From Shewanella putrefaciens (lineage in GTDB: Bacteria; Pseudomonadota; Gammaproteobacteria; Enterobacterales; Shewanellaceae), in NCBI RefSeq assembly GCF_016406325.1, contig NZ_CP066370.1, positions 930,001 to 994,000 on the forward strand: 64,000 bases of DNA. Reading direction: 5' to 3'. A program made the position numbers and the translations under genes. The notes beneath the pieces were generated by a model. That model did not search any database. It was not told the DNA's origin and was given only the letters and a program-made list of their open reading frames with translations. Positions 45,962 through 49,837 of the stretch are shown here, piece by piece; position 1 is the stretch's first letter, and each line of letters opens with the position of its first letter.

Positions 45962-47425
45962 CTAAGGGCTAAAGAATCCTGTTTCTTGGCTTACTTGCTG
46001 CCTTGGTTCTTTAATATCTGTGACTGAAAATCGGATCAATTTTCGCCCTGAAGGGACATTATCTTTATCGGCAAGAACCGTTACGGGATAGTCAATTTGT
46101 TCGCCCGCGGCTAAGGTGATAATGGGAGCCGCAATCAAGCTAAAAGGCATTTCACTGTCAACGGCAAGTTGATATTGCTTAGTGTCTTGTGTCTTGTTGC
46201 GGATCTTCAGTTGATAGGTATTTTCAACTTTATTATCCGAGGTTTCACGGTACAGGCTTTGGCGATCGCGTATCACGTTAAGCTGAATTTCGCTGCGGTT
46301 ATTTAGATCTAAGCCTATGACGATGAACATAATAATGACCGCTGCACCGTAGCCTAAGAAACGGGGAGATCGCCAATAGGAATGGGATATTCCTTTGAGA
46401 TCATTTTCACTCATATAGCCGATAAGATTTTGTTTGTAATCGAATTTCAACATAGTTTCGTTACAAGCATCAACACAGGCACCGCAGTTGATGCACTCAT
46501 ATTGTAAGCCGTTACGAATATCGATCCCCGTTGGGCACACTTCGACACATAAATGGCAATCAACACAGTCGCCCAAAGTAGGGTCAGCTAGATTCGTTGC
46601 TTGCTTACGTTTACGTGGACCGCGGGATTCACCACGCTGTGCATCGTAGGTTACTGTTTTAGTATTGGCATCGAACATTACCGCTTGGAAACGGGAATAA
46701 GGGCAGCAATGCAGACACATTTGCTCGCGCATCCAACCCGCATTGAGATAGGTACAAATGGCGAAGAACCAGACCCAACAAGTCACCCAGAAGCTAGCAT
46801 TACCTGTGAATATATCTAAATAGAGTTCGCGTGCGGGGATAAAATAGCCAATAAAACCGCAACCAGTAAGTAAGGCTGCGAGTCCCCATAGGCTATGTTT
46901 TACGGTTCTTTTGCCGATTTTATTTGCTGTCCAAGGGGCTTTGTCGAGTAATTTACGTTTGTTGCTATTACCTTCGATACGGTTTTCTATCCATACATAG
47001 ATAAAGGTCCATGCAGTTTGCGGACAAAGATAGCCACACCAAACGCGTCCCCAGAATACGGTGACAAAAAACAAACCAAAAGCCGCTGCGATAAAAATCC
47101 ATGCTAATAGCGTAAAATCCTGCGGCCAGAGCGTTAACCCAAAAAAGAAAAATTGCTGCTGACTGACATCCAACAATATTGCTTGGCGGCCATTAACAGA
47201 TATAAACGGCAGGGCGAAAAATAGCACAATTAACAGGCTATTCATCATGGTTCTTAAGCGTTGGAAATACCCCTTTTGTTCACGAAAATGAATTTTGCTT
47301 GAGGCAGTGGCATTTTCGAGCGAGGAGTTTGCTTTCGGGGCGGTTGAAATATTTTTAATGGGGATAAATTGCTCTGCTAAGGCAGGTTTTGCGTTTGTAA
47401 TTGGGGTTATGTCGCTCTTTGGCAT
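45962..47425 (-). CDS. ccoG: Cytochrome c oxidase accessory protein CcoG (RdxA/FixG family)
   Basis: CcoG proteins are membrane-bound iron-sulfur proteins that help assemble cbb3-type oxidase, probably by reducing Cu(II) for the CuB site. The 487-residue protein has about five membrane helices, the FWGRVWCGYLCPQTAW segment, a ferredoxin-like pair of cluster motifs CVDCHLCVEVCP and CINCGACVDACN, and a C-terminal immunoglobulin-like periplasmic domain. The N-terminal 50 residues are low in complexity. No ccoNOPQ or ccoHIS genes are adjacent; in place of these a sigma-54 activator gene lies upstream, with its probable operator and a sigma-54 promoter in the gap. Confidence 0.92.
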   Translation of the reverse strand: MPKSDITPITNAKPALAEQFIPIKNISTAPKANSSLENATASSKIHFREQKGYFQRLRTMMNSLLIVLFFALPFISVNGRQAILLDVSQQQFFFFGLTLWPQDFTLLAWIFIAAAFGLFFVTVFWGRVWCGYLCPQTAWTFIYVWIENRIEGNSNKRKLLDKAPWTANKIGKRTVKHSLWGLAALLTGCGFIGYFIPARELYLDIFTGNASFWVTCWVWFFAICTYLNAGWMREQMCLHCCPYSRFQAVMFDANTKTVTYDAQRGESRGPRKRKQATNLADPTLGDCVDCHLCVEVCPTGIDIRNGLQYECINCGACVDACNETMLKFDYKQNLIGYMSENDLKGISHSYWRSPRFLGYGAAVIIMFIVIGLDLNNRSEIQLNVIRDRQSLYRETSDNKVENTYQLKIRNKTQDTKQYQLAVDSEMPFSLIAAPIITLAAGEQIDYPVTVLADKDNVPSGRKLIRFSVTDIKEPRQQVSQETGFFSP

Positions 47426-47464
47426 AAGAGAGTCCTAACGGCTTTAATAAGATTTATCCCCTAT

Positions 47465-47482
47465 TAGCAAGCGTTAGGCCAA
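47465..47482 (-). promoter_or_regulatory. Sigma-54 promoter of ccoG
   Basis: On the minus strand TTGGCCTAACGCTTGCTA gives GG and GC separated by exactly ten bases, with the flanking TTGGC and TTGC of the -24/-12 consensus. Transcription would start near 47455, about 30 bases before the ccoG ATG. Confidence 0.8.
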
Positions 47483-47544
47483 TATGTTGTGAGTTTAATG
47501 TACTGATATTTATGGTTAAAATTAATGAACTGATTATGCATTCT

Positions 47545-47576
47545 CACGATATATCGCGAATTGGCGATATATCGTG
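47545..47576. promoter_or_regulatory. Paired operator (upstream activating sequence) in front of ccoG
   Basis: Two inverted copies of GCGATATATCGTG (47545-47557 and 47564-47576) are separated by GAATTG. Each has the internal palindrome CGATATATCG. The pair is centred about 105 bp upstream of the predicted sigma-54 start, the usual distance for an enhancer-binding activator. A third copy lies in front of the activator gene. Confidence 0.75.
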
Positions 47577-47595
47577 TAATTTAGATAGTAGGGCG

Positions 47596-49062
47596 CTAAT
47601 TCGTTTCATTCATTTGACGTTGGATCCCCAATTTTTTCATCCGCGATCTGAGCGTGCTCGGCGGTACCCCTAAGATATTAGCTGCGCCAGAAGGCCCTGA
47701 TATACGCCAATTTAAGCGTTTAAGTGTTTGTTCTATATGCCATGCTTCTGCTTCAGCTAGGGTTTGATGCTGCAGTGATAAATGTGGCGCATTTAGGTTA
47801 TCGGTTGGCATTGCATGGATGTGTAAAATATCTCCTTGGGTAAGAATTGCTTCACGCTCAAGGATATTTTGTAGCTCACGTACATTGCCGGGCCAAGTGT
47901 AGGCCATCAGTTTTTGTAGGCCTTTTTGACTGACCCCGCGGATTTTTTTACCCAGTTTTCGATTCAAGTTATGGAGTATATGGCTGACTAGTTCGGGGAT
48001 ATCATCCAGCCTCGATCGGAGTGGCGGAACTTTAATTGGGAATACATTCAAACGGTAATAGAGATCCATACGAAATAATCCCAGCTCGACTCGTTTGAGT
48101 AAATCATGGTGGCTGGCTGCGACTAAGCGAATATCCACTTGGATGGTTTCACTACCGCCGAGACGTTCAAAGGATTGCTCTTGAATAACTCGTAGTAATT
48201 TTGATTGGGCTTCCAAACTGAGTTCTGCGACTTCATCGAGGAACAGCGTTCCCTGATGTGCAAGTTCAAATCGACCTTTTCGGCGGCTGGTGGCACCGGT
48301 AAATGCTCCTTTTTCGTGACCAAAGAGTTCACTTTCCAGTAAAGAGGCTGAGAAGGCGGCACAGTTAACGCTGATCATAGGTTTATCTTTGCGGTGACTG
48401 AGTTTGTGTAAGTTGCGGGCAACTAATTCTTTTCCTGTGCCATTTTCACCACAAATCAACACTGTACTGTCGGTGTTGGCAACCATGTGTAGTTGCTGGA
48501 TCATGTGGCGGATAACACTGCTATTACCAGAAATATCCACATCACCTGTTTTATCTGCTAATTCGGCTTGCAGGTAGTGATTTTCTGATGCAAGACGTTC
48601 GGATAGTGCTTGCACTTGGATTAAGGCTTGGCGTAATGAGTGCTCAGTTTGTTTTTGAATACTAATGTCACGAAATATCGCGACTACGCCAATAAGTTGA
48701 TTGTCTCGATAAACAGGAGTAGAGCTGTAATGCACTGGGAAGCTGCTACCATCTTTACGCCAAAACACATCGTGGGTGATCTCGCGGGTGATACCATCCT
48801 TTAAGGTATTGTAAATTGGACAATCTTCTTGGGGATAATGGCTGCCATCCGCATGGCTATGATGGTGGCAATTATGGATATTTTTGCCCAGTAACTCTGC
48901 ATTTTTCCAGCCTGTCATCCGTTCAGCTGCTGGATTGATAAAAACGGCATTTCCATTTAAATCAAAACCATAAATACCTTCACCCACGGCATTGAGTAGC
49001 AACTGATTTTCCGGCAGAAAATGTTTGTCTAATGGTTCTTTAGGGGAGGGGGTCTTAGTCAT
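47596..49062 (-). CDS. Sigma-54-dependent transcriptional activator with PAS sensor (PAS-AAA+-Fis)
   Basis: A 488-residue enhancer-binding protein. A PAS domain (about 15-140) contains [19 protein letters not shown], then a short coiled coil ([16 protein letters not shown]). The AAA+ domain (about 175-410) has Walker A GENGTGKE, the sigma-54 contact loop GAFTGA, and Walker [12 protein letters not shown]. The C-terminus is a Fis-type helix-turn-helix ([21 protein letters not shown]). There is no receiver domain, so the signal should enter through PAS. Operator copies occur both upstream of ccoG and upstream of its own start, pointing to activation of ccoG and autoregulation. A His/Cys-rich PAS suggests metal, haem or redox sensing, which is inference only. 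Confidence 0.9.
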
Positions 49063-49096
49063 ACACAGATTACCGAGGTAGCAAGCAGATAGCTTG

Positions 49097-49129
49097 ATTA
49101 TACACTTTATATCTTGGCGATATATCGTG
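49097..49129 (-). promoter_or_regulatory. Promoter with overlapping operator for the sigma-54 activator gene
   Basis: On the minus strand TATAAT lies at 49102-49097. The third operator copy, sharing TTGGCGATATATCGTG with the ccoG site, occupies 49114-49129 and covers the -35 position. This arrangement fits negative autoregulation. The rest of the gap to 49276 shows no gene. Confidence 0.55.
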
Positions 49130-49276
49130 ACTTTGATGTTTGGCTTACAGCATGATTCGGTATCTTACATTCAATGCTCTTTCTTAGCGTGAGATGCAGT
49201 TTGTTAGATATTTTGTTGTAGTCATCGATGTGATACGTATGAATTAAAACGCCTTTAAAGATGCTTTGATTAGAAT

Positions 49277-49837
49277 TCAGTATGAGTATGCTGGACGACC
49301 TTGGGCCGCTGCAAGGCCATTAAGCACATCATTGATACTCAATTTTGCTGGTAACACAATGCCTTTAGGTAAACTTGGCCCATAGATTTTATTGTAAGGC
49401 GTGCCTGGTACTCCCTCATGGCGCATATATGATTCAATTGTGCTGTTGGCTTCACTCCAATTGCCTTGCATTAAAATAATATTTTCTGCCATTAGGGCAT
49501 TTACAATTTGTTCTCTGTGGGTCACATCGGCTTTATTCGTTTGGCAAATCGTGCACCAATCTGAAGTGATATCGACAAAAACCGTATAACCCTGTGCGAC
49601 CAGAGGAGCAATTTCGGCGGGTGCTAAGGTATGCCATTGGAGTTTTTGGTAAGCCTGATAATCTTCTCCTTTGTGTACAAATCCGATAATACTGCCTAAA
49701 CCTAATGCAAAAAATCCTAAGGTAAAAATCACTGATAATGGGATGTTTTTACCTTTTCTCTTTTGCCATAACAAAAGCAGAATGACACCGATTAGTAAAC
49801 TAAGAAGAATAAAACTGATGAGGGTGATTGTGCCCAT
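49277..49837 (-). CDS. Membrane-anchored thioredoxin-like protein (DsbD C-terminal-like)
   Basis: A 186-residue protein with two N-terminal membrane helices (about 4-24 and 33-53) and a thioredoxin-fold domain with the redox pair C95/C98 in SDWCTICQTNK. The surrounding VFVDITSDWCTICQTNKADV resembles the C-terminal domain of DsbD/ScsB-type electron carriers. The topology places the domain in the periplasm if the N-terminus is cytoplasmic, though either orientation is possible. The DsbD transmembrane and N-terminal domains are absent. It lies upstream of the sigma-54 activator and CcoG on the same strand, so thiol or copper redox chemistry is a common theme. Confidence 0.82.
   Translation of the reverse strand: MGTITLISFILLSLLIGVILLLLWQKRKGKNIPLSVIFTLGFFALGLGSIIGFVHKGEDYQAYQKLQWHTLAPAEIAPLVAQGYTVFVDITSDWCTICQTNKADVTHREQIVNALMAENIILMQGNWSEANSTIESYMRHEGVPGTPYNKIYGPSLPKGIVLPAKLSINDVLNGLAAAQGRPAYSY

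Follow-up and report, generated by a model that had tools for sequence, protein, structure and literature searches.

The region described here lies in a 64,000-nucleotide stretch of Shewanella putrefaciens DNA (NZ_CP066370.1, positions 930,001 to 994,000; hereafter, the window), part of a genome of 4,386,330 bp in one contig. At window positions 45,962 to 49,837, three genes follow each other on the minus strand: a thioredoxin-like gene (49837-49277), the gene of a sigma-54-dependent activator (hereafter, the regulator; 49062-47596), and ccoG2 (47425-45962), which is separated from the regulator gene by 170 bp. A preliminary description, made from the sequence alone, had read the locus as an activator circuit controlling an orphan ccoG. 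Our analysis concerns the regulator-ccoG2 pair, its promoter and its operators, one of which is predicted to lie inside the regulator gene itself. The features are as follows.

45962..47425, minus strand: ccoG2, membrane iron-sulphur protein of the CcoG/RdxA/FixG family, paralog of ccoG1 (TIGR02745, Fer4_18, FixG_C)
47466..47481, minus strand: predicted -24/-12 sigma-54 promoter TGGCCTAACGCTTGCT, GG-N10-GC, 11 of 12 consensus positions
47496..47508, minus strand: integration host factor (IHF)-like site TATCAGTACATTA, 8 of 9 positions, operators on one side and promoter on the other
47544..47577, no strand assigned: putative tandem upstream activating operators, CGATATATCG cores at 47547-47556 and 47565-47574, 18 bp apart
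47596..49062, minus strand: regulator, PAS - AAA+ sigma-54 interaction (GAFTGA) - Fis-type helix-turn-helix (HTH) activator, SO_3660 ortholog (Pfam/NCBIfam)
48668..48683, minus strand: candidate intragenic operator TCGCGATATTTCGTGA, regulator codons 127-132, marked by synonymous constraint
about 49114-49130, no strand assigned: operator over the -35 region of the presumed regulator promoter, 10-mer core at 49118-49127, read directly
49097..49102, minus strand: TATAAT, read directly; putative -10 element of the presumed sigma-70 regulator promoter
49277..49837, minus strand: thioredoxin-like protein with N-terminal hydrophobic stretch and WCTIC, SO_3659 ortholog (Thioredoxin_7)

The GG-N10-GC element and the two inverted operator copies upstream of ccoG had both been noted in the preliminary description; the former was read within a base or two of where it had been placed, and the latter at the core positions listed above. 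The operator cores sit within CACGATATATCGC and GCGATATATCGTG. Measured downstream from the centre of the pair, the ATG is ~135 bp away and the transcript start that the -12 element would predict is ~105 bp away. As had also been described, a 16-base core recurs over the -35 region of the presumed regulator promoter: TTGGCGATATATCGTG is present at 47561-47576 and again at 49114-49129. The 4.39-Mb genome contains five exact copies of CGATATATCG, three of them at this locus. One of the off-locus copies lies inside an open reading frame (ORF) resembling lactate permease (L134), and the other is upstream of an hns-like gene (L135:4277-4286); both genes were named by eye.

The preliminary description had staked its reading on conservation of these elements in orthologous gaps. 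We therefore surveyed 129 Shewanella genomes and fetched 98 loci (97 with regulator orthologs, and one relative in G004). Gap counts refer to the 97 ortholog loci plus the window; the regulator-positive genomes G091, G093, and G097 were left out. GG-N10-GC scored 9-11 of 12 in 98/98 gaps (11 in 79 of them), and the score reached at least 9 in 13/98 reversed gaps used as control. At least one operator with no more than two mismatches was found in 98/98 gaps, and two copies in 93/98. The distance from the nearer operator to the -24 element was 73-78 bp in 90 gaps and 65-66 bp (about one helical turn closer) in 8. These gap sequences are related by descent, and the counts are not independent events; the spacer around the conserved elements nevertheless varies freely. 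The -24 element precedes the ATG by 41 to 719 bp (median 57), but start codons were assigned by script and may be wrong where the leader is longest (up to 719).

Many sigma-54 promoters with enhancers, though not all, have an IHF site in the spacer; the IHF consensus is WATCAANNNNTTR. Matches at 8 or more of its 9 positions occurred between operator and promoter in 83/98 gaps, 33 of them perfect, versus ~20 and 1.4 for shuffled sequences, and the best match was 27-28 bp before the -24 element in 73/98 gaps. The window gap has a second 8/9 match, farther upstream than the 47496-47508 site. An rpoN gene is present in the window genome (TIGR02395, 527 bits, G000:C1:649463-650902). These findings indicate that a promoter of sigma-54 type with operators at fixed distance is conserved at ccoG2, where sigma-54 dependence and IHF binding are predicted. 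The IHF-like site is an addition to the preliminary description. Searches of one open-access library gave no published account of sigma-54 control of ccoG, and the main text of a study of Shewanella regulons (PMC3223726) contains no mention of SO3660, ccoG, RpoN, cytochrome oxidase, or cbb3.

By domain content and fold, the regulator is a standard sigma-54-dependent activator. It has Sigma54_activat (PF00158, 236 bits), HTH_8 (PF02954, residues 434-478), and PAS domains, with the GAFTGA loop at residues 252-257; GAFTGA and a Fis-type HTH had been recognized in the preliminary description. Its fold matches included the sigma-54 activators 1ojl, DmpR, and NtrC1. Of 36 NCBIfam models matched, the 25 named activator models listed all scored the regulator below their cut-offs. 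Orthologs were found in 101/129 genus genomes; G004, which has only a 49% identical relative, was scored as lacking. The copies in G036, G074, G105, and G110 are seemingly split or interrupted.

The PAS domain, noted earlier for its His and Cys residues, has invariant His63, His67, His68, Gly73, and Cys81, and nearly invariant His66 and His70, in 63 aligned proteins. This residue set hints that the domain binds a metal or haem or has a redox-active site. His63, His67, and Cys81 were retained in 5/5 related activators with no ccoG in the fetched stretch. The PAS model (predicted local distance difference test score, 86) matched LOV, DOS, FixL, and NifL folds about equally. Haem PAS domains of the FixL/DOS type have an axial haem ligand on the F helix; DOS and FixL are among these generic matches, and Cys81 is directly before modelled helix 82-89. 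LOV photosensors have a conserved adduct-forming Cys. Residue 65, which is aligned to the LOV Cys of 7r5n, is Cys in 80/94 Shewanella proteins and Tyr, Phe, or Leu in 15/15 others, and a LOV photosensor was rejected. This protein alignment omits L116 and L117-L120, the frames of the latter being short or interrupted.

CcoG2 scored 519.3 bits with TIGR02745 (cut-off 316.7) and has Fer4_18 and FixG_C domains. Its two [4Fe-4S] motifs, CxxCxxCxxxC (Cys287, 290, 293, 297 and Cys311, 314, 317, 321), are invariant in 96/96 aligned genes, and it also has membrane CxxxCP motifs and an Ig-like C-terminal domain. Contrary to the preliminary description, the gene is no orphan but the second of two paralogs. 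The other, ccoG1, is 47% identical to ccoG2 and scored 610 bits; it lies at G000:C1:4350348, close to a gene named by eye as glmS-like. The cbb3 operon, without ccoG, is elsewhere (these genes were named by eye except ccoN, at 2153501). Since ccoG1 is at 4350348, ccoG2 at 0.98 Mb, and ccoN at 2153501, neither ccoG copy adjoins the cbb3 operon, a location that is usual for the family but does not define it; the separation from the oxidase genes pointed out in the preliminary description is real, but is not special to ccoG2.

A survey of adjacent genes across Shewanella, which the preliminary description had suggested, revealed ccoG beside the regulator in 97/97 fetched ortholog loci; it was not found in the G004 stretch. 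The 101 regulator-positive genomes had two ccoG matches in 98 cases, three (probably pieces) in one, and one in two. ccoG was seen beside the regulator in 98 of them, and the other three had two ccoG matches. The 28 regulator-negative genomes had a single ccoG (22) or none (6, including G111, which is 52% complete); a second ccoG was found in 0/28. Seven of these genomes were checked and had only a ccoG copy 48-55% identical to ccoG2. The two regulator-positive genomes with a single ccoG, G021 and G128, retained ccoG2 (84 and 63% identical to the window protein, respectively). ccoG1 was not detected in either genome, G128 being a single contig; ccoN was present in both.

In a tree of 58 CcoG proteins, 23/23 unlinked copies (10 Shewanella ccoG1, 13 others) fell on one side of a branch. 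The other side comprised the regulator-linked copies and the second copy of G300 (L165), with support of 94/79, just under the level starred by the tool. L159 and L165 were long branches of unsure placement. Taken together, the tree, the linkage, and the pattern of presence and absence indicate that the regulator-ccoG2 pair is old and co-inherited as far as sampled.

The pair extends beyond the genus. An order-wide search matched the regulator at threshold in 49 of 394 genomes, 20 of them Shewanella, and 20 of 32 non-genus places were fetched. ccoG was beside the regulator in 16 of these 20 loci, i.e., in 15/15 at 60-63% identity and 1/2 at 52-53%; it was not found in the fetched stretches of L158 and L160-L162 (the latter three at 49-50% identity). 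An operator with no more than two mismatches was present in all 16 ccoG loci, and GG-N10-GC scoring at least 9 in 15, with L144 the exception. Five of these loci (L143, L149, L151, L153, L156; family f16) have a conserved 270-271-aa gene between regulator and ccoG; one copy tested had no NCBIfam match at 1e-10. Operator and promoter in all five are between this gene and ccoG, and no operator was found between the regulator and this gene, although two-mismatch matches occur inside the gene in L149 and L156. Because operator and promoter stay beside ccoG despite the intervening gene, these loci support the activator-ccoG circuit.

Two ccoG copies were present in 14 of 17 genomes examined for ccoG content, and one in 3, two of which are under 90% complete. 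A scan with patterns common to sigma-54 activators gave taxa among the matches listed and is not a census. Colwellia sp. 75C3 (L187) and Pseudoalteromonas arabiensis (L189) have ccoG downstream of the regulator; by strict scan, L187 has the operators but no TGG-N8-TTGC, and L189 has TGG-N8-TTGC but no operators. A class-wide scan gave no further ccoG-linked case in 8 new loci read, whose flanks were short.

Mismatch scans of the window revealed a further candidate operator within the regulator gene, TCGCGATATTTCGTGA at 48668-48683, which the preliminary description did not include. Ile129 is encoded by ATA in 94/94 Shewanella genes; in 109 aligned genes (94 Shewanella, 15 others), residue 129 is Ile in 98, and 97 of these use ATA. 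ATA accounts for 549/3,072 Ile codons in the regulator alignment; of the other Ile columns, those with at least 50 cases use it at 37% or less. These other columns of the same genes served as control, since the peptide recurs in other PAS genes in six cases only (ATT 3, ATC 2, ATA 1), too few for use. Ala128 is GCG in 91/93. We scanned 284 columns in 95 genes for synonymous constraint, with the codon classes of serine, leucine, and arginine split. The windows at codons 127-131 ranked top (maximum z 7.4), and the best window independent of them had z 1.7. All columns have one common tree, and relatedness therefore cannot account for this contrast. The same scan of ccoG2 gave a top z of 3.4 and no comparable window. 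The codon alignments omit L116 and L117-L120, and the 109-gene alignment also omits L149 and L158-like relatives.

A perfect palindrome is blocked by Phe130, and the gene holds the best palindrome that the protein permits. At least one intragenic site with no more than one mismatch was found in 97/98 regulator genes, and the variant CGATATTTCG is also common as the operator upstream of the regulator. The extended motif TCRCGATATWTCGYGA occurs without mismatch at two places genome-wide, the activating site and the intragenic site, and the operator at the regulator promoter matches it with one mismatch. The upstream operator itself was present with no more than one mismatch in 70/98 loci. Two ideas about the intragenic site were rejected. 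The distance from the promoter operator to the intragenic operator showed no evident helical phasing (R 0.12 over 25 distinct distances; R 0.32 over all 67 measured of 98, where distances are not independent), and an apparent internal sigma-54 promoter, a match at nt 300, is explained by conserved protein sequence.

Genetic data published by others for S. oneidensis MR-1, whose locus is L164, bear on the function of the pair. According to PMC2262068, a 15-base box, to which no ArcA binding was seen, lies 205 bp before so3659; in the MR-1 locus, the thioredoxin-like gene begins exactly this far downstream of the box. In view of this agreement, the thioredoxin-like gene is SO_3659 and, by order, SO_3660 is the regulator and SO_3662 is ccoG2. 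SO3662 is listed as a FixG-related protein in PMC3271074. The main text of PMC8357807 reports that in-frame deletion of SO_3660 or SO_3662 disrupts cathodic electron uptake while leaving electron deposition unaffected, that complementation restores uptake in both deletions, and that both mutants are unable to oxidise reduced anthraquinone-2,6-disulfonate (AQDS) in a dye assay coupled to fumarate and nitrate. The same text terms SO_3662 an inner-membrane ferredoxin, does not mention ccoG or sigma, and speculates on an electron uptake operon, SO_3656-SO_3665, putatively under SO_3660. A shared deletion phenotype is expected of an activator and its target, and it supports the circuit proposed in the preliminary description. 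MR-1 also has ccoG1, which does not make ccoG2 redundant. A role purely in oxidase assembly fits the phenotype badly, given the coupling of the dye assay to fumarate and nitrate. Another paper retrieved as possibly relevant (PMC12096838) deals with vesicles and was set aside.

These findings make it very probable that the regulator is a one-component enhancer-binding activator dedicated to ccoG2 and self-limiting through its own operators. Upon receiving a cue through its PAS domain, the regulator (SO_3660 in MR-1) would assemble on the tandem palindromic operator before ccoG2; IHF would bend the intervening DNA, allowing the regulator to contact sigma-54 polymerase at -24/-12, and ccoG2 would be transcribed only on the PAS cue. 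Binding of the regulator to the operator over its own promoter and to the intragenic operator would most likely limit its own transcription, by DNA loop or roadblock. With its two [4Fe-4S] motifs, CcoG2 would act as an inner-membrane electron carrier, the acceptor being Cu(II) or some other species; MR-1 appears to need this process for full cathodic uptake, and ccoG1 would be no substitute in it.

We also propose, more tentatively, a specific form of this mechanism. The regulator frame may double as cis-regulatory DNA, with codons 127-131 fixed genus-wide to keep a regulator-binding palindrome ~380 bp into the gene; together with the promoter operator, this site would form a self-limiting loop or roadblock that sets the activator supply for ccoG2, and CcoG2 would be a dedicated inner-membrane carrier for extracellular electron uptake rather than an oxidase assembly factor. 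This proposal is plausible, but we hold it with reservation. Several observations weigh against the main interpretation of a dedicated, self-limiting activator. Outside Shewanella, the intragenic operator was found at one mismatch in only 3/15 genes. The upstream operator was not found (no more than one mismatch) in 28/98 loci; thus, autoregulation at the promoter site is not universal. Pattern TCRCGATATWTCGYGA was composed after the sites were seen, and there are two off-locus places with one mismatch (G000:C1:2062970-2062985 and 2728712-2728727). The PAS fold search singles out no ligand. According to the main text of PMC8357807, any disruption in SO_3656-SO_3665 gave the dye phenotype, which is therefore not specific to the regulator-ccoG2 pair.

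Part of the evidence could be read in another way: CcoG2 could be a spare cupric reductase for cbb3 assembly or copper tolerance, with the regulator as a copper sensor. This is the copper side of the redox- or copper-responsive module suggested in the preliminary description. Rhodobacter capsulatus CcoG is such an enzyme, serving both cbb3 assembly and copper tolerance (PMC7558416), the iron-sulphur motifs of CcoG2 are intact, and the PAS domain has the invariant His63, His67, His68, and Cys81. However, a spare enzyme does not readily account for the phenotype of SO_3662 loss, seen despite ccoG1 in MR-1 and also in the fumarate/nitrate-coupled dye assay (main text of PMC8357807), or for the 22 Shewanella genomes that have a single ccoG and no regulator, the seven checked having only the divergent copy. 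Nor are His63, His67, and Cys81 copper-specific, because they are kept in all five activators without ccoG in the fetched stretch. We consider the copper explanation possible but rather unlikely.

The constraint at codons 127-131 could also result from rare-codon pausing, RNA structure, or an internal promoter instead of regulator binding. ATA is indeed the least used Ile codon, and GG-N10-GC scores at least 9 at nt 300 in 64/94 genes, although this match is dictated by the invariant Trp-Arg-Lys-Asp-Gly. The listed constrained columns do not include codons 101-106, ccoG2 has no window of this kind, and the constrained bases are those of the 16-bp operator palindrome, whose variant CGATATTTCG serves as upstream operator in many loci; such causes thus appear improbable. 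We likewise give little credence to a wider regulon in which ccoG2 is one target of many and the unit is the putative operon SO_3656-SO_3665. The proposal in PMC8357807 (main text), the exact core upstream of the hns-like gene, and the two off-locus one-mismatch places argue for it. However, the genes SO_3656-SO_3665, placed by order, occupy both strands in MR-1 and so cannot be one operon. Only the activating and intragenic sites match TCRCGATATWTCGYGA without mismatch; at no more than two mismatches, the window genome has 25 matches versus 20 for the reversed pattern, and the off-locus tandem matches, among those listed, carry 2-3 mismatches.

The dedicated activator and its predicted target can be compared with several known systems. 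Like other CcoG/RdxA/FixG proteins (TIGR02745; cbb3 assembly factor, cupric reductase), CcoG2 passes the family cut-off and has the [4Fe-4S] and CxxxCP motifs and the Ig-like C-terminus; it differs in that it is the second copy, lies away from the cbb3 genes, is linked to a sigma-54 activator, and has a mutant phenotype in electron uptake. The regulator resembles NifA/NorR/ZraR-type activators in its AAA+ domain with GAFTGA, Fis-type HTH, tandem palindromes ~100 bp upstream, IHF-like site, and adjacent target; the PAS residues His63/His67/His68/Cys81, the ccoG2 target, and the putative operator within its own coding sequence set it apart. In lac-type auxiliary control, a second operator lies several hundred bp into the gene. 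The window intragenic operator, ~447 bp from the promoter operator, is similar in this respect, but it is in the gene of the regulator itself, appears to be kept genus-wide by synonymous-codon selection, would bind a sigma-54 activator, and has a distance without clear helical phasing. The electron uptake genes SO_3660 and SO_3662 (PMC8357807, main text) are orthologs of the window regulator and ccoG2, to which the present analysis adds the promoter, operators, and paralogy.

The genes for Shewanella electron uptake from electrodes or minerals are known, but the mechanism is lacking. Two of the five genes confirmed in PMC8357807 (main text) now appear as one old, co-inherited module in which a sigma-54 activator is paired with a CcoG paralog as its predicted target. 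The module supplies a defined promoter, an operator, and a candidate redox enzyme for electron uptake, and it raises the question of why this process needs a member of a cupric-reductase family. If the proposed role of the intragenic operator is true, the site would clearly exemplify synonymous codons that are preserved because a protein binds them, the protein being the product of the same gene.

The thioredoxin-like gene, which the preliminary description had treated as a partner, is present in the window, but it is variable. It was found (tblastn, E 1e-5, ~2.5 kb flank) in only 33/98 fetched Shewanella stretches and is therefore accessory rather than a core part; it is on the same strand as the regulator in 33/33, upstream of it in 28 and downstream in 5.

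The related activators of L160, L161, L162, and L116 are ~50% identical to the regulator, have frames of 616-657 aa with an extra N-terminal part, and have no ccoG in the fetched stretch. The L160 activator faces genes for a nitrate-type ABC transporter and cyanase. This group is possibly a cyanate- or nitrogen-linked sister regulator with the same His/Cys PAS core.

A 65-aa ORF between the MR-1 regulator and ccoG2 may be SO_3661. MR-1 has ~280 extra bases between the regulator and the operators (L051:4019-4297), making its gap 441 bp versus ~160-170 bp in near relatives. The insert is bounded by GGGCGTGTTGAC and an inverted copy, leaves the operator-promoter block intact, and looks like a small mobile repeat.

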